A DNA stretch of 10,086 nt from Myxococcales bacterium (GTDB taxonomy: Bacteria; Myxococcota; Bradymonadia; REDH01): NCBI GenBank assembly GCA_018970625.1, contig JAGWVZ010000088.1, forward strand, positions 1 through 10,086, in the 5' to 3' direction. Shown here in pieces: positions 1 through 10,086 of this stretch. Made by a program: the position numbers and the translations under genes. Every line of letters begins with the position of its first letter. Position 1 is the first letter of the stretch. The notes under the pieces were generated by a model. That model worked only from the letters and a program-made list of their open reading frames with translations, was not told where the DNA came from and did no database searches.

Positions 1-2034
1 TCGGATTTTGAGCATACCCAGATCACGCGAGTTGAGCAGCGGCCTCCAGACTTCGCCGGCGAATCTCCTGATGTGGTCGATCGTGAGGCGCAATCCAACC
101 TGCAGGGTGCGACCCCTGAACCGGCCTCCCGCCAGCCGGAACCCGGCGAGATGGCCGATGATTCGGTGCTCCGGGGCGCGGCGCCTGCGAGAACCCGCAA
201 CCTTTTGACGGAGTTCCCGCTCGTCGTCGATGAATCACCGCAGTCGTCCGGGTCAGAATCGACAGGCGAGGTCGATGCGCCGGTCCTCTTGAACGCGAAC
301 ATGACCCTCGTGCCACTTGCGCGGCAGCAAGCCATCGAGCGTCCCGGGCGTCGCACAATAACGGGTGAGGACCCTTTCTGGGAGAGTGGGCTGGCCGCGC
401 TCGAACAATCAGACCTCGGCGCACCGATTTCGGGCTTCCCTGGCCTGGATTCACCGCCGACGGCGTCAGAAAGTGGTTCAACTGCGTCGCCACTTCCTTT
501 CGCTGGTGCATCGTCAAATGACGCCAGCGCACAAGTCTGGACAGCGTCACAGATCGGTCTCGAATCGCTGAATCCCGCACCGGATGACTTGCAGCCTGCT
601 TCACCTGAATCCACGTTGGCCGCGGATACCTCTGCCGTGCAGTCTCCTGCCGATGCGCTCGACGTCCAACCGCAGGTCACCGCGCAAGCGCGCAGGCGTC
701 GCGCTTTCGCCGACACGATGGACTCCTACGAGCCTTCATCGTCATCGCCTCGAACCGCATCTCTTTCGCCGCTCTACTCTGGCCAGACCGAGCCGCTGAT
801 CAATCCCGAGACACAGGCTGCAGCGGCCACATTCGTAGCCGAAGGAGGCCGACTCGACGAGCGCGTGGACCCCGTGTCTCCCACTCAGCCGCTGGACACG
901 ACGGCCGTTCGCCCGCGCATTATTGACCCGGTGAATCACGCCAGTGTGCCGGCTCAGTCCGCCACGTTGCTGCAACCGCCTCCGCAGCAGACCTTGCACG
1001 CTCCAGCCCATGAACCGGCGCCTCCTGTCGACGTCAACCGCATGTCGAGAGCCTCGTTTCCGGGTGAGTCGCGTGACTCCAGCGCGTTGCAGACGCCCAT
1101 GCATCTGATGGCCGCCGCCGAGCTCCCCGCAGCCGCCGGAGGACTTCCTGCCGGTGATCCACAGCTGCGTTCCCACGTGGCTCGATTGCCCGACGTACAG
1201 GTCATGGAGCTGCTGAACAGTGGTGTGCCAGCCTATCGCGAGGTCGCCTTCGCGGTGCTGGTAGAACGCGGCGCGTCGGCGCAGGCGGCGCTGCTCGCAT
1301 CATTCCCGCGCCCGCTCATCGGTCCACGCCGCGAGCTGGTCGCTTCTGGGCAGGCGCTCGAAGAACATGGACCTGTCATCTGGCTACTCACGCAACAGCT
1401 GCGCGACGTCGTCGAGCCGCTGCGCCAGTTCCTGACCCACCCTGACGCCGACCATCGCTACTATGCCACGGTCCTTCTGTTCCGGGCCAACGATCAGACC
1501 AGCCTCGGCCGGGTAGCCGAGCTGCTCTATGACGCTGACGAACAGGTTCGCGCCGCCGCGATGCGTTACGTCGAGACGTGGCGACTGAACAGCGCCGTCG
1601 AGTCCGTGCTCGCTGTCGTTCGCCGCCACTTCGGCAATGGCGACCCGCGAAATGTGGCCATTTCCGTAGTGGCCTCAGCCGAGCTGCGCGATGTGACCGC
1701 GGTTCCCACGCTGATTGAATTCCTTGACCATGCCTCTGACCATGTGCGTCGCCGTGCACAGACGTCGCTGGTGCGACTTACGTTTCAGGAGCTGGGGAGT
1801 GACCGCAGGGCCTGGGAGAAATGGTACAAAAAGGCGTCTGGCTCGGGCCGCGACCGCTGGCTGCTGGACGCCATGGTGGACCGCGATATTCGCGTCCGCG
1901 AAAATGCGGCACGAGAAATACGGTCGATTCCCAGACTGGTCGTAAATTATAATCCCGAATTTGACCTGCGCGGTCAGCAAACCGCACAGCGGACTGTCGA
2001 ACACTTCCTGAGTCTGCGTCGCGGACATTTCTGA
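1..2034 (+). CDS. HEAT-repeat protein with long disordered N-terminal region (5' partial)
   Basis: The frame is open from the first base of the window, so the true start lies upstream. An internal GTG at 73 has no convincing ribosome binding site, and the composition is the same on both sides of it. The visible 677 residues split in two. Roughly residues 1-395 are rich in Pro, Ser, Ala, Gln and Thr, with no predicted fold, and read as intrinsically disordered. From about 395 to the end there are alternating amphipathic helices typical of HEAT/PBS-lyase-like repeats, for example around VRAAAMRYVETW and VRRRAQTSLVRLT. A Trp-rich segment (RRAWEKWYKK) and the repeat DRDIRVRENAAREI follow. I see no cysteine anywhere in the visible part. 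HEAT repeats are protein-interaction scaffolds, so no reaction can be assigned. The gene ends TGA and converges on the lipoprotein operon, with 109 bp between the stop codons. Function unknown; the HEAT call is fairly safe. Confidence 0.8.
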   Translation, partial: SDFEHTQITRVEQRPPDFAGESPDVVDREAQSNLQGATPEPASRQPEPGEMADDSVLRGAAPARTRNLLTEFPLVVDESPQSSGSESTGEVDAPVLLNANMTLVPLARQQAIERPGRRTITGEDPFWESGLAALEQSDLGAPISGFPGLDSPPTASESGSTASPLPFAGASSNDASAQVWTASQIGLESLNPAPDDLQPASPESTLAADTSAVQSPADALDVQPQVTAQARRRRAFADTMDSYEPSSSSPRTASLSPLYSGQTEPLINPETQAAAATFVAEGGRLDERVDPVSPTQPLDTTAVRPRIIDPVNHASVPAQSATLLQPPPQQTLHAPAHEPAPPVDVNRMSRASFPGESRDSSALQTPMHLMAAAELPAAAGGLPAGDPQLRSHVARLPDVQVMELLNSGVPAYREVAFAVLVERGASAQAALLASFPRPLIGPRRELVASGQALEEHGPVIWLLTQQLRDVVEPLRQFLTHPDADHRYYATVLLFRANDQTSLGRVAELLYDADEQVRAAAMRYVETWRLNSAVESVLAVVRRHFGNGDPRNVAISVVASAELRDVTAVPTLIEFLDHASDHVRRRAQTSLVRLTFQELGSDRRAWEKWYKKASGSGRDRWLLDAMVDRDIRVRENAAREIRSIPRLVVNYNPEFDLRGQQTAQRTVEHFLSLRRGHF

Positions 2035-2143
2035 GTCGGGTCAGAATCCGGAAATGTGCGGCGTTGCAGGGGAATCCTCAATAGCACAAGACGTTCAGGG
2101 CGGCGGTTTATCTGCTTACATCTTTTACGCGAAGATGAGCCTG
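2035..2143. other. convergent intergenic gap between the HEAT gene and the lipoprotein operon
   Basis: This 109-bp gap separates two facing stop codons. The only structure I see is an imperfect hairpin, with arms CATCTT (2119-2124) and AAGATG (2132-2137) around a 7-nt loop and an outer GCT/AGC pairing across a 2-nt bulge. It has no clear T tract on either strand, so I do not call it an intrinsic terminator. It could still serve as a weak bidirectional end. Confidence 0.35.
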
Positions 2144-4441
2144 TTACCGCACCGTATCGCCGTCCAGACCGCCGTCGACAATTAAATACCCATCACGAAT
2201 CACAATCGGTCGGTCCAGCACGACCTGTAACGCGAACGTCGACAGGTTCGGTGCAAGGTCGCCCAGCGCTTCGGTTCCAAGCCTGGGCAATTCAATGGCC
2301 AGATTGTCAATCAGACCTGCTGAAATCTCCGGCCAGACCGCTGCCAGAATCAGGTCGCGCAAGTCGTTGGGGTCCTCGAAAATGGGGGCGTCGCCGCCCA
2401 CTGAAATCTGCCAGAAATCCAGCGTCGGCTCGGGCTGTATCTGCACAATAATGCGATTGTCTTCGACCAGCAGATTCGCGCCCGTGGTCAAATACGCGCC
2501 CAGCACATCCTCTGATTCCCCCTTGCCAAGCGTTAGTTCAAGCTGCCCCACCGTGATCAGAATGGCGTAGTCCGACTCGCCGGCGCGAGCAGGGCGGATT
2601 ATCGGAGGCAGTTGTCCGGAGACCTCCACGCGATCGACCAGAAAAGCCAGACCTTCGGGAAGCACCGAGGTCACGTCCAGCTCCAGCAGTCCGGCATTCC
2701 AGATGCTGTGCAAAAGCCCATTCAGCACCGGTAGACGAAGCGCGATCTGCACGCGGGACGTCTGAAAGAGGGAAGGCGCTTCGGTGAGCGCCGCGTTCAG
2801 TGCAATGCCGCGACTTTCCGGGTGCACAGGGGGCTGGTCAACCCCCAGCGAGACCCCCAGAGATGCCGTCAAATCCGTGCGACGACTGGGGGTCAGCGTC
2901 TCCAGATTCGCTCCCAGGCTCAGCGTAATCGGTGCGCCAAACCCCAGATCCAACGGGAACGTCTGGTTGCCCAACAAATCGTCGATTGACCCGACCGCAT
3001 CGCCAAGGACAGCGGGAAGCTCGTCCAGAAATTGCTCATTTACCAGGTCCAGCGCGACATTCTCGATGGCGCTGAACAGCGAGGTCTCGGCCAGCGCGAC
3101 AATGGCATTCGCCTGCGGACTGGCAAAATATCCGGTGATCGATTCCACAGCCAGATCGACCAGCTCTACCGCCACATCGATATCCTCGTCGATTCGCTGA
3201 CGCAGGCGCATGCGCACATAGCCCGAGAGGCTGACGCCCACGCCGCCATTCAGGTCCAGCACCGTGTCGCCGAGTCGCGCTGAACCCTGCGTGCGCAGAA
3301 ACAGCTCTGGAATGGCTACGAACACCTCCACGCCGCGCGTGGTCACGATGATGTCGATGCGGGGTGTCCCCGGATCCACTTCGGTGGCCCGAAGGAAGAG
3401 CTGCGTTGTATCGACCAGCGGATCAGGCAGCTGCGCCGTGAGCTCGAGCTCTCGAAACAGAAGCTCCAGAATCCCTGCAAGGTCGGTCGTCTCGTACGAA
3501 ATCACATCGGCGTCAGGGACGGTCGCCAGATTGGCATCCAGAAATCCCTGATTCAACTGCAGCGTCACCGCATTTCTGAAATTCGTCGCGATGGGCTGGT
3601 CAGCGCCCACCGGGGTCACATAATCCAGATATTCCTGCGCAACCAGAACATCGACGGCCTGTCGGGTTTCATCGGTGCGCAGCACATCGGTGGCGATCAC
3701 CTCAATATGGTTAATGCCATAGGCTGCCTCGATTTCGGTCGCAAAGGTGCCGTCGGGCTGCAATGTCACAGGCTGTCCATTTACAAAGACACGTATTTCG
3801 CCATGTGTATCGGAAGCCCGACCTGTTACCTCAATCCCCGAAAACACCTCGCTCGCCAGAAACTCTGTACCCGGCTCCGGCGTGATAACTTCCAGTGTGG
3901 GAGCGCCCGCGTCCACCACCAGCGTGCGGCTCGAACACAGGGGTTCGGTCAGCCGAACATCGTTGGCGCAGCCCTCCAGAACCAGCGAACCCTCGTCCAG
4001 AAATTTCAGCCGACCATCGTCCTGAATCTCAGCGGCGGCCTCGGGGTTTACCGTGAACGTTCCTTCTACAGGCCCAATCTCGACTCCCTCTTCGCTCCAT
4101 GCGCGAAGTGTGGGCGTAATCAGGAAATTGACCGGAAACACGCTCCGCGCCGGTGCGATTTCCACCGCTACGTAAGCAGGGACGGGTGCCTCGGCGTCCG
4201 TCTCGGTGTTGCCGGTATCGCCGGTGTCGGCGACGGCATCTTCGTCGGCACCCGCATCTCCGGCATCACCTGCATCCGGCGCACCGGTATCTGGTCCGGT
4301 GTCTATGGCATCGGGATCTGGAGTAGCGCCACTGCTCCCGGCGTCATCACCGCAGGCCGATGTCAGGGCGCAAATGCCGGAAATCAGCAACGCCCTGCGA
4401 AGCCAGACTGCGTTACCCATGAGGATATCGTTGGTTTTCAT
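2144..4441 (-). CDS. lipoprotein with Ig-like domains and a BPI/LBP-like (TULIP) C-terminal half
   Basis: This 765-residue protein carries a lipoprotein signal peptide with lipobox LTSAC (Cys30). The residue after Cys is Gly, not Asp, which by the E. coli Lol rule favours the outer membrane. An Asp/Gly/Ala/Thr linker spans about 31-84. A beta-rich Ig-like stretch (about 86-176) has one Cys pair (158, 169), and a glucodextranase-B-like module follows at about 178-267 (VNGQPVTLQPDGTF, then GIN and ATD). From about 282 on, hydrophobic strands and two long helices resemble BPI1 plus BPI2. ETSLFSAIENVALDL fits the long BPI1 helix, LNGLLHSIWNAGLLELDV fits the BPI2 helix with its conserved 'aG-L' turn, and the end has the BPI pattern of helix, Leu-Pro, then three strands. 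The family binds lipids or lipopolysaccharide in a hydrophobic groove. The ligand here is unknown and the fold call is inference. ATG at 4441 follows the upstream stop by 21 bp. ATG at 4420 would give a tidier 22-residue signal peptide. Neither has a clear Shine-Dalgarno. Confidence 0.85.
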   Translation of the reverse strand: MKTNDILMGNAVWLRRALLISGICALTSACGDDAGSSGATPDPDAIDTGPDTGAPDAGDAGDAGADEDAVADTGDTGNTETDAEAPVPAYVAVEIAPARSVFPVNFLITPTLRAWSEEGVEIGPVEGTFTVNPEAAAEIQDDGRLKFLDEGSLVLEGCANDVRLTEPLCSSRTLVVDAGAPTLEVITPEPGTEFLASEVFSGIEVTGRASDTHGEIRVFVNGQPVTLQPDGTFATEIEAAYGINHIEVIATDVLRTDETRQAVDVLVAQEYLDYVTPVGADQPIATNFRNAVTLQLNQGFLDANLATVPDADVISYETTDLAGILELLFRELELTAQLPDPLVDTTQLFLRATEVDPGTPRIDIIVTTRGVEVFVAIPELFLRTQGSARLGDTVLDLNGGVGVSLSGYVRMRLRQRIDEDIDVAVELVDLAVESITGYFASPQANAIVALAETSLFSAIENVALDLVNEQFLDELPAVLGDAVGSIDDLLGNQTFPLDLGFGAPITLSLGANLETLTPSRRTDLTASLGVSLGVDQPPVHPESRGIALNAALTEAPSLFQTSRVQIALRLPVLNGLLHSIWNAGLLELDVTSVLPEGLAFLVDRVEVSGQLPPIIRPARAGESDYAILITVGQLELTLGKGESEDVLGAYLTTGANLLVEDNRIIVQIQPEPTLDFWQISVGGDAPIFEDPNDLRDLILAAVWPEISAGLIDNLAIELPRLGTEALGDLAPNLSTFALQVVLDRPIVIRDGYLIVDGGLDGDTVR
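4190..4351 (-). repeat. low-complexity Asp/Thr/Gly/Ala linker of the 765-residue lipoprotein
   Basis: The DNA is made of short degenerate repeats such as GCCGGTATC, GCCGGTGTC and GCATCTCCGGCATC. They encode a flexible acidic tether (DTGPDTGAPDAGDAGDAG and similar) just after the lipidated Cys. Linkers of this kind hold the folded part away from the membrane. Repeat-rich DNA like this is prone to length change between strains. Confidence 0.7.
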
Positions 4442-4462
4442 GTTGGTATGCAGGTGCAGAGG

Positions 4463-7306
4463 TCAGCGATTTCCGAAGTTGCCTTCGGCCACAAAATGCG
4501 TCGCATTGGTAAACAGACGGGGCGCTACCAGACCCAGACGGGTGCCTGGCGCAAATCCAAACTCGGCCAGCGAATCAGGCAGGGCGAAATCCGGGATTGG
4601 CAGCGCCGGAAGCGCGGAGTTTACACTTTCGTCCACCAGGTACCCGAGCAGCTCCGTCAGGAAGCTCTCGAGCTCGTCGAGCTGCGTCGGCGTCAAGGCA
4701 CGATTCTCAGGCGAGAAATACAGCTCTTCCACCACGATATCGCGGAACTGAATGACGTTCTCGTCCAGCAGATCAAAGCCGGTGGTTGCAACGCCGCCGA
4801 GCTCAACGTCGAGCGGCTGGTCGATGATACCGGGAATGACCACGACTGCCTGAATGGCGCCGATGTGAACGCTGACGGAGTTTTCATCGGAGCCGGCGAC
4901 AACAGGTGGCAAGTTGGTGCGAATTGCGGCGATGGAGCCCGCTGGCACATCGCCAATGGCCGAGCCGTCGATGCTCGCGTCCAGAAGCCCCGAACGCCAC
5001 AGGGCATGTAGCGCCTGATTGAAGACGCCAATCGAAATGCCAGCCGCCACCACGCGTGAACCACTACCGATGAAGCGAACCGGGCCCGGCGGAACGGGCG
5101 CGCCAAGGGTCAGGCCGGCACGTTCGGCGTTATTGGTCAGGCGAGTCGAGATGCCAAACAGGGCGCGCGTCGAGGTAAAGTCAATGGACCCGAACTGAAT
5201 ACCAAACCCGATATTGCTCACCCCTTCGCCATCCAGGTGATTCACTGAGAAGGTCTGGCCAACCGAATCCAGGTTCAGGCCGCCCACGACGCCGTCGAGA
5301 ATCTCATTGAATGAATCACGCACGTAATCGCGAACGGTGTCGCGAATCAGGTTGCGAATGGTGCCTTGAAACAGATCCACAATAATATTGACGATAAATC
5401 CTGTCAGACCGCTGAAGTCGGTGTCCACACGGCCTACCGACACATCGTTCACACTTCGCAGCGTAATGCGCGGACGACCGCCGGAGAGCCCGGCGTTGAA
5501 GGTGAGGTCGACACCCAGTGACTCAAAGGTGACCCATCCCTGCGTGCTGAACGTGCCGCCAATACGCAGACGGAACCGAAGGCCGCGCACGTTGCCGACG
5601 GCTCGCATGCCACCGTCGACCAGCTGCAACGTGGTGTCGTTCGGACCATTCAGCGCAGTATCCTGATGATTGACGCTCACACTCAGGGCGCAGAAACACC
5701 CGAAAATGCATACCCGCTGCACGCACTCGTCATAAAGCGGATTGGCGGCCTGCAGGGTCGAGTGAAGGGTATTGCGTACGCCCGAGCTGTTGAGCGCGGT
5801 GTGCAGCAGGTCGTTGATGCTGTCCAGGCCATCAAAGCGGTCAAAGTCATCCAGCGCATTCTGGAACAGGGTCAGCGTGACCGAGTCGGTCAGAAATCCA
5901 CCTTCTGAAACAAACTGGTCGGCGACAAGGAAGGCACACGTGCGACGCGATGGGTTACCGTCGGTGTCGGTAGCGGCGACCTGCACGAAGTTAATGCCGA
6001 AGCGTGTTGGAATGGTGGCCACAAAGGAGCCGTCGGCGCTTAGTGTGGCGGGTACGTCGTTCACAACGACCGTGTCGGCGCCGAAGACATCGTTGACCCG
6101 GCCGCGGAACTCCATGTTGGAGCCGGGCGTCACCGAGAGAAAAGCGCCATCGCTGGGGCGGTCGCAGACAATCGCGGGCCCCTCGCTGTTCACGGTCACG
6201 TTGCGGGATGCCACGATGGGGCTCCCCGACAGCGTCGGCAGACCCACAATCAGGTTCAGCTGAAAAATGCCCTCGGTATCAAACCGGAACCGGCCCTCAC
6301 CGAACGATGGCACGGTCGGCAGGGAGCTGAACGTCACCAGCGCGTCGGGGATGAGGTTCCCAAACTCGTCGCTCACGCTGTATTGAAGCTCGACCGTGTC
6401 GCCCACGCCATACACCCGGCGCTCGGGTACCACGCCCACCGACGCCGCAGCCGGAAGGCCGGGAACGACCTCCAGCGTGGCCGGGATGATCTCGGCCGCA
6501 CCGTCCGTATCGCAACGCACGTCATAAACGCCGGCGCGTTCGACGATCACGTACTCACGGTCCACTTCGACACCCGAGCCACCCGGGTCGGTGCCGACGG
6601 TGAACTCCACGTCCGGAATCTCATTTCCCAGGATATCGAACGCGGTGCAGAAGACCTGCACAAACTCACCCGCTTCGATCGCGTCCTGGTCCAGCGTCGC
6701 GATCATCGTGTAGGGAAGGCCCGGCAACACTTCGAGCTGCGCCGGCGAATCGTCGACCAGCCCAAGCGTCGGCAGCGAACAGGCCACCTGCAACGTACCG
6801 GTTCGCAACGGGCGAAGCTCCGTTCCACCGGCTGCGATCTCTGCCGATGCTGCCGGGGCTGCAATCACGGTGCGCCGTGTATCGGGCGGGAGCGAGATCG
6901 CCTCCCCGTTTTCGTCGATCGCCTGACAGTTCACGACCACGGTCGAGCCGGCCGTCGTAGAGGTCGTGGACAACAACGTATCGACCGCAAAAGGTGCCGG
7001 CGGAAACTCTGGCCCCGTGTCACCCGAGCCGTCTGCAGCGTCCAGATCGACGGCGTCCGATGCGTCTGTCTCAGCGTCCGGCGTGCTATCGGGCGCGGCG
7101 TCCGAAGCCGCATCGCCCTGAACATCCGGTACCGGGACTTCGTTCGCATCAGCTACACCAGCGTCTGCACCCGTGCGCGCACTGCCTGTATCCTCGCTGC
7201 CGCAGGCAGAGAGCGTCGTACACAATACGACGAACAGGCAGAGCAACGCCTTCAGGCGTAGCGAGATCCGTGCCGCGCGCGGCTCAGCATCAAAGGAGTT
7301 TTCCAT
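4463..7306 (-). CDS. large lipoprotein with three Ig-like domains and a BPI/LBP-like (TULIP) C-terminal half
   Basis: From ATG 7306 the product has 947 residues. The signal peptide ends in lipobox TLSAC (Cys35, then Gly), followed by an acidic linker (about 36-101). Three tandem Ig-like repeats follow (about 103-195, 197-283, 285-373). The first two end in LEVLPGLP and LEVVPGLP and have Cys pairs (127/176, 220/265) placed like Ig-fold disulfides. A glucodextranase-B-like module follows (about 378-462; VNDVPATLSADGSF, then GIN and ATD; Cys381/457). About 490-947 resembles the BPI family. FSGLTGFIVNIIVDLFQ then RNLIRD fits the BPI1 helix (GWLIQLFHKKIESALRN in human BPI, from memory). VFNQALHALWRSGLLD fits the BPI2 helix. 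The end, ALPALPIPDFALP, fits the BPI Leu-Pro turn and last strands. A cluster of four Cys (528, 533, 537, 539) is peculiar to this paralogue. It is first in a two-gene operon. TTG 7363 and ATG 7318 are alternative in-frame starts. I chose 7306 because it puts the charged n-region nearest the hydrophobic core, but its Shine-Dalgarno is poor. Confidence 0.85.
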   Translation of the reverse strand: MENSFDAEPRAARISLRLKALLCLFVVLCTTLSACGSEDTGSARTGADAGVADANEVPVPDVQGDAASDAAPDSTPDAETDASDAVDLDAADGSGDTGPEFPPAPFAVDTLLSTTSTTAGSTVVVNCQAIDENGEAISLPPDTRRTVIAAPAASAEIAAGGTELRPLRTGTLQVACSLPTLGLVDDSPAQLEVLPGLPYTMIATLDQDAIEAGEFVQVFCTAFDILGNEIPDVEFTVGTDPGGSGVEVDREYVIVERAGVYDVRCDTDGAAEIIPATLEVVPGLPAAASVGVVPERRVYGVGDTVELQYSVSDEFGNLIPDALVTFSSLPTVPSFGEGRFRFDTEGIFQLNLIVGLPTLSGSPIVASRNVTVNSEGPAIVCDRPSDGAFLSVTPGSNMEFRGRVNDVFGADTVVVNDVPATLSADGSFVATIPTRFGINFVQVAATDTDGNPSRRTCAFLVADQFVSEGGFLTDSVTLTLFQNALDDFDRFDGLDSINDLLHTALNSSGVRNTLHSTLQAANPLYDECVQRVCIFGCFCALSVSVNHQDTALNGPNDTTLQLVDGGMRAVGNVRGLRFRLRIGGTFSTQGWVTFESLGVDLTFNAGLSGGRPRITLRSVNDVSVGRVDTDFSGLTGFIVNIIVDLFQGTIRNLIRDTVRDYVRDSFNEILDGVVGGLNLDSVGQTFSVNHLDGEGVSNIGFGIQFGSIDFTSTRALFGISTRLTNNAERAGLTLGAPVPPGPVRFIGSGSRVVAAGISIGVFNQALHALWRSGLLDASIDGSAIGDVPAGSIAAIRTNLPPVVAGSDENSVSVHIGAIQAVVVIPGIIDQPLDVELGGVATTGFDLLDENVIQFRDIVVEELYFSPENRALTPTQLDELESFLTELLGYLVDESVNSALPALPIPDFALPDSLAEFGFAPGTRLGLVAPRLFTNATHFVAEGNFGNR
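7004..7201 (-). repeat. low-complexity Asp/Ala/Pro/Ser linker of the 947-residue lipoprotein
   Basis: This stretch encodes about 66 residues of acidic tether directly after lipidated Cys35, for example DAASDAAPDSTPDAETDASD. It has the same position and composition as the linker in the downstream paralogue but a different sequence. The shared layout is therefore probably a conserved style of tether, not a recent copy. Confidence 0.65.
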
Positions 7307-7586
7307 GGGGCAGCTCATCGGGAGGAAGCGTTCGTTGCGGCACGCTAGTCGCTCAACTTCCAACAGGCAATCAGAGTTAGACTCGCCTGTCTGCCAGAAT
7401 TACCCACAGGTGACTGTAATTCCGATTGCCCGTCTCCGGGTGCTACAGGAACCAGACACGTCCCCTGCTCGGAAGCTGAATAGACCCATGGGTCCACGAT
7501 GAACCAGCCCTCGATGCAAACCGTTCGAGCGCCCGGTGGTCACGTTTGTGTGCTTACGGTCACAATTCGCACCGGTGGGTTGCCGC
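7307..7586. other. intergenic region between the lipoprotein operon and yciH, no gene seen
   Basis: About 280 bp without a credible gene. It must hold the promoter of the lipoprotein operon (reading left) and the end of the yciH transcript (also reading left). I could not find a -10/-35 pair worth naming. Visible items are a perfect 12-bp palindrome GACCCATGGGTC (7483-7494), an 8-bp palindrome CACCGGTG (7570-7577) just past the yciH stop, and two GGTCAC hexamers 20 bp apart (7538-7543 and 7558-7563). Any of these could be a protein-binding site or chance. Confidence 0.4.
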
Positions 7587-7961
7587 TCACTTCTTTACCT
7601 TAAACCCCTCGGCAACCAGAAATGTGAACACCGTTTCAACATGATCGCCCTGCACTTCAATCACGCCGTCGCGGGTGGTGCCCCCCGCCCCACAGCGCGT
7701 GCGCAGCTTCTTGCCGAGCGCCTCGAGCTCGATGGCGTTTAGTGGCAGGTCGGTCACCATGGTCACCGTTTTGCCGCCGCGCCCCTTGTTGTCGCGTTTC
7801 ACCCGGGCTGTTCCGGCGCCCTGCGGGACAGCCAGTTTTTTCAGGGCGGAGCAGATACAGGCGGTCACGGCCTTGCCGCAGTCCGGGCATAACCGACCTG
7901 TTTCCGAAGAAAACACCACACGGGGTGCATCATCACGCGAAGAGCTGGAGCGGGTGGCCAT
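7587..7961 (-). CDS. yciH: SUI1/eIF1-like translation factor, YciH family
   Basis: A 124-residue protein of the SUI1 family. These are the bacterial homologues of eukaryotic initiation factor eIF1, which bind near the ribosomal P site and affect initiation fidelity; the physiological role in bacteria is not settled. The N-terminus has the family's VVFSSETGR signature. Next is a zinc-ribbon-like knuckle with Cys25, Cys28, Cys35 and Cys37 (CPDCGKAVTACIC). The SUI1 core runs from about residue 50, with a basic, glycine-rich patch (KRDNKGRGGKTVT), then RTRCGAGGTTRDGVIEVQGDH and the closing EGFKVKK. ATG 7961 is chosen because GGAG lies 7 nt upstream and the sequence becomes YciH-like from there. 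The frame stays open back to 8126 but reads as noise. It is transcribed away from nadM, sharing a 188-bp intergenic region. Confidence 0.93.
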   Translation of the reverse strand: MATRSSSSRDDAPRVVFSSETGRLCPDCGKAVTACICSALKKLAVPQGAGTARVKRDNKGRGGKTVTMVTDLPLNAIELEALGKKLRTRCGAGGTTRDGVIEVQGDHVETVFTFLVAEGFKVKK

Positions 7962-7998
7962 GACTGGACTCCGACCTGAGGGCAAAGGTTGGGCGAAG

Positions 7999-8028
7999 GT
8001 TATGGCGCGGGGCACGGGCGAAAGGCAA
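7999..8028 (-). promoter_or_regulatory. possible weak promoter for yciH
   Basis: On the minus strand a -35-like TTGCCT (8023-8028) and a -10-like CATAAC (7999-8004) are separated by 18 bp, each matching sigma-70 consensus at 4 of 6 positions. The spacing to the yciH start (7961) is reasonable. The match is modest and could be chance. Confidence 0.25.
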
Positions 8029-8060
8029 CTGAAACAGTCGCCAGATGTGTGTGGCACCTC

Positions 8061-8089
8061 TTGACAACCCGGGTGCCTCGCACAATGCA
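8061..8089 (+). promoter_or_regulatory. possible promoter for the nadM-nadV region
   Basis: A perfect TTGACA (8061-8066) sits about 90 bp before nadM. The -10 is unclear. CACAAT (8081-8086) matches 4 of 6 but leaves only 14 bp of spacer, while 17 bp lands on the poor AATGCA. If this is the promoter, transcription would begin near 8093, placing the first leader hairpin (from 8099) at the very 5' end of the mRNA. Confidence 0.35.
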
Positions 8090-8098
8090 CTTCGCACA

Positions 8099-8117
8099 GG
8101 CTCACAGGGAGTGGGCC
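8099..8117 (+). promoter_or_regulatory. leader hairpin 1 of nadM, A-N-GGA pentaloop
   Basis: Arms GGCTCAC (8099-8105) and GTGGGCC (8111-8117) form 7 pairs, one of them G-U, around the loop AGGGA (8106-8110). GGA in the loop of a short hairpin is the recognised target of CsrA/RsmA-family repressors. It lies upstream of, and separate from, the Shine-Dalgarno. Confidence 0.5.
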
Positions 8118-8129
8118 GTACCACAACGT

Positions 8130-8144
8130 ACCTCAAGGAGAGGT
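8130..8144 (+). promoter_or_regulatory. leader hairpin 2 of nadM, holding the Shine-Dalgarno in an AAGGA loop
   Basis: Arms ACCTC (8130-8134) and GAGGT (8140-8144) pair perfectly around the loop AAGGA (8135-8139); two more G-U pairs are possible outside. The loop and 3' arm contain the ribosome binding site AAGGAG, 9 nt before ATG 8150. The hairpin can therefore hide part of the site, and a protein bound to the loop would block initiation. Confidence 0.55.
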
Positions 8145-8149
8145 GTATC

Positions 8150-9262
8150 ATGAGTCGTTTGCGACTTGGTATTGTGATTGGGCGATTTCAACCGGTGCAT
8201 CATGGGCATATGCTCGATGTCCTCACACCTGCGTATCGGGAGAGCGATCACCTGCTGATTCTGCTGGGTTCGGCCAATCGGGCGCCCAGTCCTCGCAACC
8301 CCTTTGATCCTGCGACACGCTACCGTCTGATTCAGGAGGCGTTGGTGGATGCCGGGTATCCCGAGGCCGTCACGTCATCGCCGAGCAAGGTGCAATTTCG
8401 GGAGCTGGACGACTTCAGTTACAGCGACTCGCTCTGGGTGGCTCAGGTTCAGCGGCTGGTCACGGAATATCAGGATGCCTTGCGCATCGCGTATCAGCGC
8501 GATGTGGATGTGGTGATCTACGCGACCGACAAGGACTCCAGCACCTATTATATTCGCATGTTTCCTCAGTGGGGGCTTCGACTTGGCGAGCCGAATCGTG
8601 TCGATCATTACAGCGCGTCTGTGGTGCGGAACTCGCTCTTTTCGGGAACTTCTGCATGGGAAACGCTGGTGCCCGACCGTGTTGCTGCCTTTCTTCGGGA
8701 GTGGATCGAGTCGCCCGAAGGCCAGTGGAACCGGAAAGAACACGAGTTCTATGAGAAATATCGGCAGCCCTACGACGACTTTCGCAAGCAGGTTGGGCAC
8801 GGATATATCGCCAACACCTGCGATGCGGTCGTCTGGCATAAGGGCCGAATTCTGCTGGTGAAACGAGCGTTTCACCCTGGCAAGGGGCTCTGGGCGCTTC
8901 CCGGCGGATACCTGAACGAGAACGAATTACCGCTTGACGGCGCCATGCGCGAATGTCGCGAAGAGACGCGGTTTCGATTGCGACCCTCATGGTGTTTCGC
9001 TGAACGTGTGTATGCGAATCCCGGGCGCTCCCTCAAGGGGCGAACCATTACGCATGGATTTGGTTTTCGGGTGCCCGACGTCGTGGACCTTGAGGAGGGC
9101 TCAGCCGAGCTGACCGCCGCCCTGCAAGCCATCCGTGGCGATAGTGACGCTTCGGGCGCTGCGTGGGTTCCTATTCATGACATTGTGTCACGCCCCGAGT
9201 TTCGGCGAGGCATGTTTGAGGACCACTGGGACATCGTGAACGATATGCTCAAGTCCCTGTAA
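8150..9262 (+). CDS. nadM: bifunctional NMN adenylyltransferase / Nudix hydrolase (NadM-Nudix type)
   Basis: A 370-residue cytoplasmic enzyme joining two known domains. The N-terminal NMN adenylyltransferase (about 1-185) makes NAD from NMN and ATP. It has the nucleotidyltransferase motif GRFQPVHHGH (HxGH at 17-20) and the second phosphate-binding motif YSASVVR (155-160). The C-terminal Nudix domain (about 215-370) has the full box starting at Gly253, with Glu259, Arg267-Glu268 and Glu271-Glu272. The usual Gly after EE-x is Arg274, as I recall for cyanobacterial Slr0787-like enzymes. Known relatives hydrolyse ADP-ribose, a breakdown product of NAD. ATG 8150 is chosen because AAGGAG lies 9 nt upstream and the enzyme family begins here. 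In-frame codons back to 8045 do not resemble the family. It precedes nadV on the same strand, and its leader carries two A-N-GGA hairpins. Phage KVP40 carries the same pair as natV and nadV. Confidence 0.95.
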   Translation: MSRLRLGIVIGRFQPVHHGHMLDVLTPAYRESDHLLILLGSANRAPSPRNPFDPATRYRLIQEALVDAGYPEAVTSSPSKVQFRELDDFSYSDSLWVAQVQRLVTEYQDALRIAYQRDVDVVIYATDKDSSTYYIRMFPQWGLRLGEPNRVDHYSASVVRNSLFSGTSAWETLVPDRVAAFLREWIESPEGQWNRKEHEFYEKYRQPYDDFRKQVGHGYIANTCDAVVWHKGRILLVKRAFHPGKGLWALPGGYLNENELPLDGAMRECREETRFRLRPSWCFAERVYANPGRSLKGRTITHGFGFRVPDVVDLEEGSAELTAALQAIRGDSDASGAAWVPIHDIVSRPEFRRGMFEDHWDIVNDMLKSL

Positions 9263-9292
9263 GGGCCGCGGAACGGAAGTTCGCGGAAACCC
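9263..9292 (+). other. stable intercistronic hairpin with a GGAA (GNRA) tetraloop after nadM
   Basis: Directly after the nadM stop, CCGC (9266-9269) pairs with GCGG (9283-9286) and GAAC (9271-9274) with GTTC (9279-9282). One G is bulged and the loop is GGAA. A further GGG (9263-9265) can pair with CCC (9290-9292) across a 3-nt bulge. There is no U tract, so it is unlikely to be an ordinary terminator. An mRNA-stability or attenuation role is possible. ACGGA also occurs across the loop edge. Confidence 0.45.
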
Positions 9293-9348
9293 GTTGCACG
9301 AATGGCGCGTCTGAATACACAACGGTGTGTGTCGTCCATGTGTTTGCT

Positions 9349-9365
9349 TCGCTCAAGGAGAGCGA
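9349..9365 (+). promoter_or_regulatory. leader hairpin 1 of nadV, AAGGA pentaloop
   Basis: TCGCTC (9349-9354) and GAGCGA (9360-9365) make a perfect 6-bp stem around AAGGA (9355-9359). The loop and inner stem repeat the 11-mer CTCAAGGAGAG found before nadM, while the outer stem bases differ and remain paired. No start codon follows at ribosome-binding distance, so the Shine-Dalgarno-like AAGGAG here is not explained by initiation. Confidence 0.55.
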
Positions 9366-9378
9366 TTTAACCCATACC

Positions 9379-9395
9379 ACTCCCACGGAGGGAGT
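9379..9395 (+). promoter_or_regulatory. leader hairpin 2 of nadV, holding the Shine-Dalgarno in an ACGGA loop
   Basis: ACTCCC (9379-9384) and GGGAGT (9390-9395) make a perfect 6-bp stem around ACGGA (9385-9389). The ribosome binding site GGAGG (9387-9391) straddles the loop and 3' arm, 8 nt before ATG 9400. The stem ends 4 nt before the start codon, against 5 nt at nadM. Confidence 0.6.
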
Positions 9396-9399
9396 AGAC

Positions 9400-10086
9400 A
9401 TGAAAGCACGTATTTTTTCGCCGGCGATGGTCCCTGTTTCTGTTGCGACTGACTCCTACAAACAGACGCACTACGAGATGTACCCTGCCGCTCGGGTCAT
9501 GAGCGCCTATGTGGAGGCTCGAACCCCCTTTGAAAAGGGCGATGATGAACGGGTTGTCTGCTACGGCCTGCAGTATTTCGTGGAACGCTGGCTGATGCAG
9601 CAGTGGACGGAAGCGGACGTCCAGGCTGCGGAGCAGTTTTATGCGACGTTCAACGCAGGCAATACCAACCACCCCTTTCCGCGCGATCTGTTTCTGAAAT
9701 TTGTCCGCGAAAATCAGGGATGGTTTCCGGTACGCGTTCAGGGTCTGCGCGATGGAACCGTGTGTTATGTGCACACACCGCAGCTGGTCTTCACGACTAC
9801 CGGGGAGTACGCACGCCTTGTCACGTGGCTCGAGACGGTGGGCTTGCAGACCATCTGGTACATGAGCACGGTGGCAACGCTGTCGCGACTGGTTGTGCAG
9901 TCCATTCAGGATGCCTTTGATGCATCGGTCGATGACAGCGCCCGGTGGAAGCTTCGCAGCCGATTTCATGACTTTGGATTTCGAGGCTGTACGTCTACCG
10001 AGCAGGCCGTCATGGGTGGTGCGGCACACTTGTTGAACTCGGACGGTACCGATACCTGCGCGGCAGCCTGGTATGCGCAATACTGG
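9400..10086 (+). CDS. nadV: nicotinamide phosphoribosyltransferase (3' partial)
   Basis: The frame starts at ATG 9400, 8 nt after GGAGG, and runs open to the window edge. It gives 229 of an expected roughly 460-490 residues. The enzyme joins nicotinamide to PRPP to give NMN, the rate-setting salvage step, and feeds the adenylyltransferase encoded just upstream. Family marks in order: DSYKQTHY (18-25, Tyr20 matching the nicotinamide-stacking Tyr18 of human NAMPT), YGLQY (55-59), VHTPQLVFTT (124-133), WLETVGLQTIWY, VATLSR, HDFGFRG (190-196, Phe192 and Arg195 matching human Phe193 and Arg196), and GTDT (216-219, Asp218 matching Asp219). These equivalences come from memory of the human enzyme. 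The active-site residues within the visible half are intact. The PRPP-site histidine and the C-terminal half lie outside the window. It probably forms one operon with nadM (137-bp gap), though a separate promoter cannot be excluded. Confidence 0.95.
   Translation, partial: MKARIFSPAMVPVSVATDSYKQTHYEMYPAARVMSAYVEARTPFEKGDDERVVCYGLQYFVERWLMQQWTEADVQAAEQFYATFNAGNTNHPFPRDLFLKFVRENQGWFPVRVQGLRDGTVCYVHTPQLVFTTTGEYARLVTWLETVGLQTIWYMSTVATLSRLVVQSIQDAFDASVDDSARWKLRSRFHDFGFRGCTSTEQAVMGGAAHLLNSDGTDTCAAAWYAQYW

Follow-up and report, generated by a model that had tools for sequence, protein, structure and literature searches.

A tandem-hairpin RNA element in the leaders of the NAD-salvage genes nadM and nadV of bacteria and phages

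Two NAD-salvage genes with paired hairpins in their leaders

We examined a 10,086-bp stretch of DNA from a Myxococcales bacterium (contig JAGWVZ010000088.1, positions 1 to 10,086; hereafter the window) in which two genes of nicotinamide adenine dinucleotide (NAD) salvage, nadM and nadV, are each preceded by two short hairpins, called H1 (upstream) and H2 (downstream). The genes and hairpins at issue are as follows.

8150..9262, plus strand: nadM, an open reading frame (ORF) of 370 amino acids encoding a nicotinamide mononucleotide (NMN) adenylyltransferase with a Nudix domain (Pfam PF01467, PF00293)
9400..10086, plus strand: nadV, the 5' part of an ORF for nicotinamide phosphoribosyltransferase (Pfam PF18127, NAMPT_N), open at its 3' end and running past the window edge
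8099..8117, plus strand: H1 of the nadM leader, 7-bp stem GGCUCAC/GUGGGCC, pentaloop AGGGA (8106-8110)
8128..8146, plus strand: H2 of the nadM leader, 7-bp stem, pentaloop AAGGA (8135-8139)
9349..9365, plus strand: H1 of the nadV leader, 6-bp stem, pentaloop AAGGA (9355-9359)
9379..9395, plus strand: H2 of the nadV leader, 6-bp stem, pentaloop ACGGA (9385-9389)

In nadM, the Shine-Dalgarno sequence AAGGAG consists of the H2 loop plus the first base of the 3' stem strand, and H2 of nadV overlaps the Shine-Dalgarno sequence GGAGG. NadM itself has homologues (P0002-P0008) with 51-65% identity to the window protein.

The original prediction, made from the letters of the window, had described these leaders as carrying paired ANGGA pentaloop hairpins, and that description holds: all four loops are present on uninterrupted stems (G.U allowed) of 7, 7, 6 and 6 bp, the GGA-to-GGA spacing is 29 nt before nadM and 30 nt before nadV, the linkers measure 12 and 13 nt when the stems are taken as 6 bp, and the closing pair is C-G in 4/4 hairpins, with outer pairs that vary while pairing is kept. 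One distance needed correction, as the last stem had been placed 5 and 4 nt before the ATG and we measure 4 nt in both leaders with 6-bp stems, so that the nadV value stands and the nadM value does not.

The tandem ANGGA hairpins before nadM and nadV are real and exceed chance expectation, a conclusion that we draw from shuffled sequences, a scan of the window, the background rate in fetched loci and the leaders of other window genes. Two or more ANGGA hairpins of at least 5 bp arose in 0/20,000 dinucleotide shuffles of each 61-nt leader, and at a threshold of at least 4 bp two hairpins were seen in 1/20,000 shuffles for nadM and 0/20,000 for nadV. On both strands of the window, ANGGA hairpins of at least 4 bp number five, the four leader hairpins and one at 6321, and the leader hairpins are the sole ones that reach 6 bp; in the loci fetched for comparison, the frequency of such hairpins with 6 bp or more is 1.2e-5 per position and strand. 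Three other genes of the window (starts as placed, one being 3 nt off) lack any ANGGA hairpin of 3 bp or longer in their leaders. Each of the four leader hairpins forms when folded in isolation, the fold of the whole nadV leader shows its hairpins as described (z -2.92), and the centroid structure of the nadM leader shows both of its hairpins.

The additional hairpin at 6321, a 5-bp AGGGA hairpin on the plus strand that lies antisense within a gene, is probably a chance occurrence.

A wider element at nadM and nadV

Compared across lineages at the sequence level, the C[ANGGA]G pairs of the window (loop in brackets, closing pair outside) are a local variant of a wider tandem-hairpin element. 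Tandem hairpins with compensatory stem changes precede nadM and nadV in Pseudomonadota, Acidobacteriota, Chloroflexota and phages, and examples with a pair before both genes come from Xanthomonas, Lysobacter, Burkholderia, Pseudoalteromonas, Acidobacteriota, Chloroflexota and many viral contigs. H1 has a long stem and a mostly purine-rich pentaloop, and H2 has a shorter stem and a pentaloop with the Shine-Dalgarno sequence; stem letters vary freely, with pairing, loop size, closing pair and spacing kept. The H1 loop mostly lies at -36 to -46 from the ATG (31-46 when the Variovorax leaders, with a GUUGA H1 loop at -31 to -35, are counted), and the H2 loop starts over the Shine-Dalgarno sequence at -8 to -17, with -17 reached only in Acidobacteriota rows and -8 to -16 in the other clear cases, in which the two loops are mostly 25-33 nt apart. 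With loop starts at -44/-15 (nadM) and -45/-15 (nadV), the window falls inside this geometry.

Loop letters follow lineage. Pseudomonadota and many phages have G[AYAGA]C as H1 with [GGAGY] or [GGAUU] as H2, other phages have C[AGAGA]G with C[GGAGA]G, Pyrinomonadaceae have C[AGGAA]G and similar loops with C[GGAGA]G, and Chloroflexota have C[AGGGA]G with C[GGGGA]G or C[AGGGA]G; across the element as a whole, AYAGA is the commonest H1 loop. Of 2020 ORF leaders in the fetched loci, 6 have an ANGGA hairpin with a stem of 5 bp or more no further than 65 nt from the start, and four of these six, from three distinct loci, belong to NAD genes: nadM in a Chloroflexota metagenome-assembled genome (MAG), nadM in its relative, where the pair is complete, and nadV in a MAG of the Pyrinomonadaceae. 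Nearest in kind to the window are two Acidobacteriota genomes, G813 (L197) and G802 (L198), with ANGGA pairs before both nadM and nadV and other stem sequences.

Two covariance models were used to survey the element, R1, built from Pseudomonadota-type leaders, and R3, built from an alignment (A8) of 19 leaders from Acidobacteriota, Chloroflexota and phages that includes no window rows. On both strands of the window, R3 gave exactly two matches, both at the leaders in question: 8099-8152 before nadM (22.4 bits, E 1e-4) and 9349-9402 before nadV (18.5 bits, E 0.0011); against a 1.15-Mb database, only the match at 8099-8152 stays below E 0.1. R1, which represents a more distant type, had no match in the window.

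In the bacterial surveys, 25/25 significant matches lay at nadM or nadV. Among 349 Pseudomonadota genomes searched with R1 (E <=0.001), we found eight matches in four genomes, each with one at nadM and one at nadV; one of the eight is a training leader, and the stricter filters of this survey mean that prevalence is underestimated. Among 119 genomes of one Acidobacteriota order searched with R3, 17/17 matches preceded nadM (12) or nadV (5), two of the nadM assignments (L297, L300) being made by coordinates. These 17 were confined to the 12 genomes with a nadM match, with 0 in the other 107; 10 of the 12 had given training rows, and G697 (39.5 bits) and G764 (60.8 bits) had not. A permissive R1 search of 14 genomes returned 33 matches, of which the 18 of at least 30 bits were all at nadM or nadV, most of them from training leaders. 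The 15 weaker ones include three at nadM leaders by position (G058, G060, G057) and nine examined matches that lie elsewhere.

A single non-NAD match in bacteria was fittingly placed, just 5' of hfq in G055 (L181, 20.7 bits); it is probably due to chance.

Two unusual layouts were also noted. In L201 and L204 (genome G847), nadM and nadV leaders alike show, by eye, a third hairpin in the H1-H2 linker, and in L216 (Rhodobacteraceae S2214 plasmid) long H1-like hairpins of 8 and 10 bp with a GAGGU pentaloop, a loop variant outside the training of R1 and R3, stand before nadM and nadV.

Selection acts on an RNA structure

To the 19 leaders of A8 we added a second alignment, A4, of 29 leaders from Pseudomonadota and phages, aligned by sequence. 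In A4, H1 shows changes on both sides at 8/9 pairs and 85.0% of cells pair, a percentage that is biased upward, to the detriment of the interpretation, as rows of both alignments were picked for visible hairpins (in A4, at least 4 contiguous H1 pairs). Because rows were chosen in this way, the variety of pair types is better evidence than the paired percentages. The covariation score of the whole A4 structure was 0.736, compared with an average of 0.218 after shuffling and no more than 0.192 for slid registers, and that of A8 was 0.631, compared with 0.159 shuffled and at most 0.166 slid. For 24 leaders of the A8 types, including those of the window, set in the register of the H1 loop, 97% of positions paired with a score of 0.99 vs 0.21. 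In a test less affected by row selection, the motif RYAGA on a stem of at least 5 bp was present in 51/226 distinct nad leaders vs 13/1255 other ORF leaders, and 7 of those 13 are nad genes missed by our signature or frames overlapping one. The original prediction of a selected RNA structure, shared by both NAD-salvage genes, with compensatory stem changes and one hairpin over the Shine-Dalgarno sequence, is thus borne out, and its alternative of a new translational RNA element agrees with the comparison across lineages.

Departures from Watson-Crick pairing offer a further, less biased view of the structure. When RYAGA by itself set the register and any one of the six H1 pairs was scored only in sequences in which the remaining five pair, 390 distinct upstream regions (related sequences enter repeatedly) gave 439 Watson-Crick pairs, 53 G.U pairs and 54 others. 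G.U thus makes up 53/107 departures vs the one in six expected by letter types, an approximately threefold over-representation, and in the sequences compared this excess fits an RNA and is unlike a DNA palindrome.

These counts bear on control at the DNA level. NrtR, NiaR and NadQ are transcriptional regulators of NAD genes; they are like the element in controlling such genes, and NrtR is Nudix-related as is part of NadM, but they use DNA operators, whereas the arms of the element covary and its loop is conserved at the RNA level. Each hairpin is also an inverted repeat in DNA, so it could be imagined as the operator of a transcription factor such as NrtR, a known Nudix-related regulator of NAD genes (PMC9503650). 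We consider this extremely unlikely, since the arms vary with compensation, the departures are enriched threefold in G.U, and the central pentaloop and the strand are conserved where conserved palindromic arms would be expected; the spacing to the ATG is also fixed, the Shine-Dalgarno sequence lies within H2, and every viral match described below is on the nadV strand. An NrtR-type operator was rejected on the grounds of arm variation and wobble-pair excess.

The element in phages and viral contigs

Phage NAD salvage is thought to counter NAD-depleting defences, according to PMC9503650. In 79 viral loci fetched by NadV, R1 gave 82 matches, 82/82 on the nadV strand, with 44 before nadV, 28 before nadM and 10 before other genes (72/82 at nadM or nadV); this count leaves out the training locus L102, and several of the 79 loci are near-duplicates (e.g. 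L225, L227, L228, L229). R3 matched none of the 79 at E 0.1 (1.15-Mb database). Bacteriophage DSS3_MAL1 has both of its leaders matched, at 37.0 and 34.7 bits.

The element extends beyond salvage genes, since in L264 it lies at 1105-1157 before nadA, encoding quinolinate synthase (Pfam NadA, E 1.6e-84), on a viral contig whose nadM is likewise preceded by it. Apart from nadA, the non-nad viral matches precede genes for small proteins without an assigned function; four of these matches come from loci that are nearly identical. The proteins are possible further members of an NAD regulon.

The small viral proteins behind the element are of three kinds, represented by L225/L227/L228/L229 (5526-5574) and L279:5316-5366, by L256:5558, L267:5210 and L290:3567, and by L224:1990-2038. 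None of the three has a Pfam match; one falls in PHROG 12218 and one in PHROG 33851 (both of unknown function), and one in no PHROG.

Among 12 NadV-bearing phage and plasmid records, NadM adjoins nadV in six, of which L205 has a strong element, L212 and L216 have variants or weak matches, and three have none; R1 had no match in the six records that lack an adjoining NadM.

An H2-like hairpin with the Shine-Dalgarno sequence in its loop, ACGUGGAGUACGU or ACGUGGAGCACGU, was also seen 5' of nadV in L209 (Enterobacter phage EC-W2) and L210 (Klebsiella phage Miro) and 5' of nadM in L121, L125 and L126, with no clear H1 in these loci except for a hairpin at -46 in L209.

Relation to known NAD riboswitches

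We class the element as a new RNA family of the translational leader type. No family in Rfam 15 matches the leaders of the window or of 14 further loci that were scanned. No such element was found in the papers that we searched on RNA control of nadV and nadM, a set that mostly omits subscription papers, so an earlier description is possible; the accessible parts of PMC11109978, PMC8632094, PMC9503650 and PMC6429828 make no mention of one.

The closest known RNAs are the NAD+-I (nadA) and NAD+-II (pnuC) riboswitches, which are like the element in lying in NAD-gene leaders with tandem or Shine-Dalgarno-occluding structures. Unlike them, the element has no Rfam match, shows no bulged aptamer or pseudoknot, sits mostly at other genes and spans several phyla and phages. 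The tandem hairpins and their linker might themselves form a protein-free pocket for NAD+, NMN or ADP-ribose. In favor of such a riboswitch are the NAD genes, the tandem layout and the 3' hairpin bearing the Shine-Dalgarno sequence, all of which resemble NAD+-I (PMC7708056, PMC10702441), as well as the wide distribution, which includes viral contigs with their own copies. We nonetheless regard a riboswitch as unlikely, since no leader scanned, in the window or in the 14 loci, matches a known NAD+ riboswitch in Rfam, and since perfect short stems with 5-nt loops, few conserved letters, variable linkers and loop letters that shift by lineage are unlike known aptamers.

CsrA as a candidate reader

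The original prediction had favored a CsrA-like protein as the regulator, with one CsrA/RsmA dimer bridging the two ANGGA loops and covering the Shine-Dalgarno sequence as at Escherichia coli glgC. Seen from the window alone, the case is a fair one. The loops are ANGGA pentaloops closed by C-G in hairpins, one of them over the Shine-Dalgarno sequence; such pentaloops with a purine at N (AGGGA, AAGGA) are high-affinity ligands of the CsrA homologue RsmE, as PMC4005645 reports, and the spacing falls within the 10-63 nt over which CsrA bridges sites, according to PMC7652899. If this organism encodes a CsrA, the protein may thus bind the two leaders. The GGA triplets of glgC lie at -41/-10, compared with -42/-13 for nadM and -43/-13 for nadV. 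Like the element, glgC has two sites about 30 nt apart, the upstream one in a hairpin loop and the downstream one over the Shine-Dalgarno sequence; unlike glgC, both window sites are in stable stems.

The wider family tells a different story. A search for PF02599 in 31 genomes gave 12 positives, and among the 25 that bear the element CsrA is present in 11 and without a PF02599 match in 14, with the limit that many of the genomes tested are MAGs of unstated completeness. The 25 are G003-G005 (hairpin pair before nadM), G043-G047, G697, G764, G775, G777, G785, G802 and G813 (R3 matches) and G048-G055, G057 and G061 (R1, at least 27 bits); outside the tally stand G001 (a leader variant) and G002 (no element), both without PF02599, and G056, G058, G059 and G060 (R1 below 25 bits or no match), of which only G056 has PF02599. 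The genomes without CsrA include G802 and G813, which carry the ANGGA variant before both genes, and the named strains Burkholderia sp. Bp9143 (G049) and Ralstonia sp. A12 (G057). GGA is moreover not kept in homologous leaders, whose H1 loops outside the window are mostly AYAGA (the commonest, without GGA), AGAGA or AGGAA, and the significant bacterial matches are restricted to NAD genes, unlike a global regulon. By the CSRA_TARGET rules as given in PMC4066749 (at least 3 binding sites and at least 2 pairs), nadV passes and nadM, with 2 sites, fails, and 114/2020 background leaders pass as well. The element thus differs from CsrA/RsmA leaders in having a loop that is not GGA family-wide, in occurring in CsrA-less genomes and in being concentrated at NAD genes. 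CsrA is unlikely as a common reader because so many element-bearing genomes lack it and because AYAGA loops prevail; it was ruled out as the general reader for these two reasons, and we judge dual-site repression by CsrA to be very unlikely. These findings caution that an ANGGA hairpin should not be taken for a CsrA site before the presence of CsrA has been checked.

Proposed translational repression by a common factor

Sequence comparison shows a conserved structure that lies over the ribosome-binding site and is associated with nadM and nadV, as well as with nadA and a few small genes in viral contigs. We think it fairly likely that the leaders of nadM and nadV represent two copies of a single cis-regulatory RNA element through which a trans-acting factor represses translation of the NAD-salvage mRNAs. 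A putative multivalent RNA-binding factor would dock on the loops of H1 and H2, cover the Shine-Dalgarno sequence and block initiation on both mRNAs. Both salvage enzymes would thereby be repressed as long as the cell has enough NAD (or enough of a related nucleotide), and salvage would be set by NAD supply. H1 may be the anchor of the factor, as suggested by Pyrinomonadaceae nadV leaders, which keep H1 together with an unpaired Shine-Dalgarno sequence, as at glgC.

Agreement between the two leaders of a locus is the pattern expected if one trans-acting factor reads both mRNAs. In the 18 loci with a clear H1 (stem of at least 5 bp, spacing 24-34) in both leaders, many of which are close relatives, the closing pair is the same before nadM and nadV in 18/18, and the whole loop is the same in 9.

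Plain tuning of initiation, with the Shine-Dalgarno sequence displayed in a loop, H1 as a standby or stabilising stem and no regulator, could account for H2 stems as short as 3 bp and for the phage and acidobacterial leaders that retain H1 alone or an H2-like hairpin alone. It leaves unexplained the conserved H1 loop letters and closing pair, the 18/18 agreement and the concentration at NAD genes, and we hold it to be distinctly unlikely.

Several observations weigh against repression through a shared element, in addition to the row selection mentioned above. A detector whose sole requirement is two pentaloop hairpins finds a tandem in 75/133 nadM and 74/112 nadV genes (near-duplicates included), with some of these being chance pairs; many nadM and nadV leaders thus have no tandem, phages XM05 and CcrPW and a Sinorhizobium plasmid carry both genes and no element, and in the Pyrinomonadaceae nadV leaders it is only H1 that is retained, leaving the Shine-Dalgarno sequence unpaired. 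At the level of structure, the minimum-energy fold of the nadM leader (72 nt) swaps H1 for another pairing (z -0.62), the number of A4 pairs with changes on both sides is 12 vs 10.6 in shuffles, 98/500 of which reach 12, and in A8 the row L103 is misregistered. R1 also has weak matches (17-25 bits) at unrelated places, including the one directly before hfq, and the direction of regulation, the effector and the binding factor are inferred.

The leading candidate for the factor that would read the element is NadM itself, with its Nudix domain as a possible sensor, because NadM accompanies the element in every matched bacterial genome and in every long viral contig checked. All six element-bearing viral contigs above 40 kb that were checked encode NadM (6/6), and four fragments below 12 kb show none. 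Ribosomal-protein leaders are read by autogenous translational repressors, and they resemble the element in being structured leaders that cover the ribosome-binding site and that the encoded protein might recognise. To our knowledge, neither NadM nor NadV has been found to bind RNA. Besides nadM and nadV, no neighbouring gene family that might encode a shared regulator occurs in more than 3/43 element loci, one 10-locus cluster excepted; this comparison covers ORFs inside the fetched stretches, and the example of the 10-locus cluster lies antisense to nadV.

Physical linkage alone could explain the co-occurrence of NadM, and most bacterial loci were fetched via NadM in the first place. The NadM signature is found in 30/35 viral loci without a nadV-leader match vs 37/44 with one, and this weak association among viral loci lowers our confidence in NadM, an unlikely reader albeit the leading candidate. 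Phage EC-W2 (L209), with no NadM beside nadV, points the same way, as it has a compatible hairpin pair with loops AACGU at -46 and GGAGU at -13, which no model matches. In its fullest form, the proposal would be that of a post-transcriptional NAD regulon common to at least three named phyla, the window lineage and phages, in which NadM senses NAD or ADP-ribose, binds the hairpins on its own mRNA, on nadV and on phage nadA and small genes, and stops their translation, with phages carrying the circuit together with the genes; this, too, is a tentative and unlikely picture. If true, an RNA-binding metabolic enzyme would be the NAD sensor.

The salvage route of NadV and NadM feeds into central metabolism, and the short, widespread architecture of the element makes NAD sensing in nadV-nadM bacteria and phages directly testable. 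It also provides a handle for finding the reader and more members of the regulon.

Other features of the window

A promoter scan of the window returned a single predicted site, inside nadM, and none in the nadM or nadV leaders. Divergent from nadM, on the minus strand at 7587-7961, lies a gene for a SUI1/YciH-like translation initiation factor, whose protein has 93% and 83% identical homologues in metagenome-type sources. Further upstream, also on the minus strand, 2144-4441 and 4463-7363 are two large neighbouring lipoprotein-like genes with D/A-rich N-termini and one Glucodextran_B domain each, perhaps the result of a tandem duplication.

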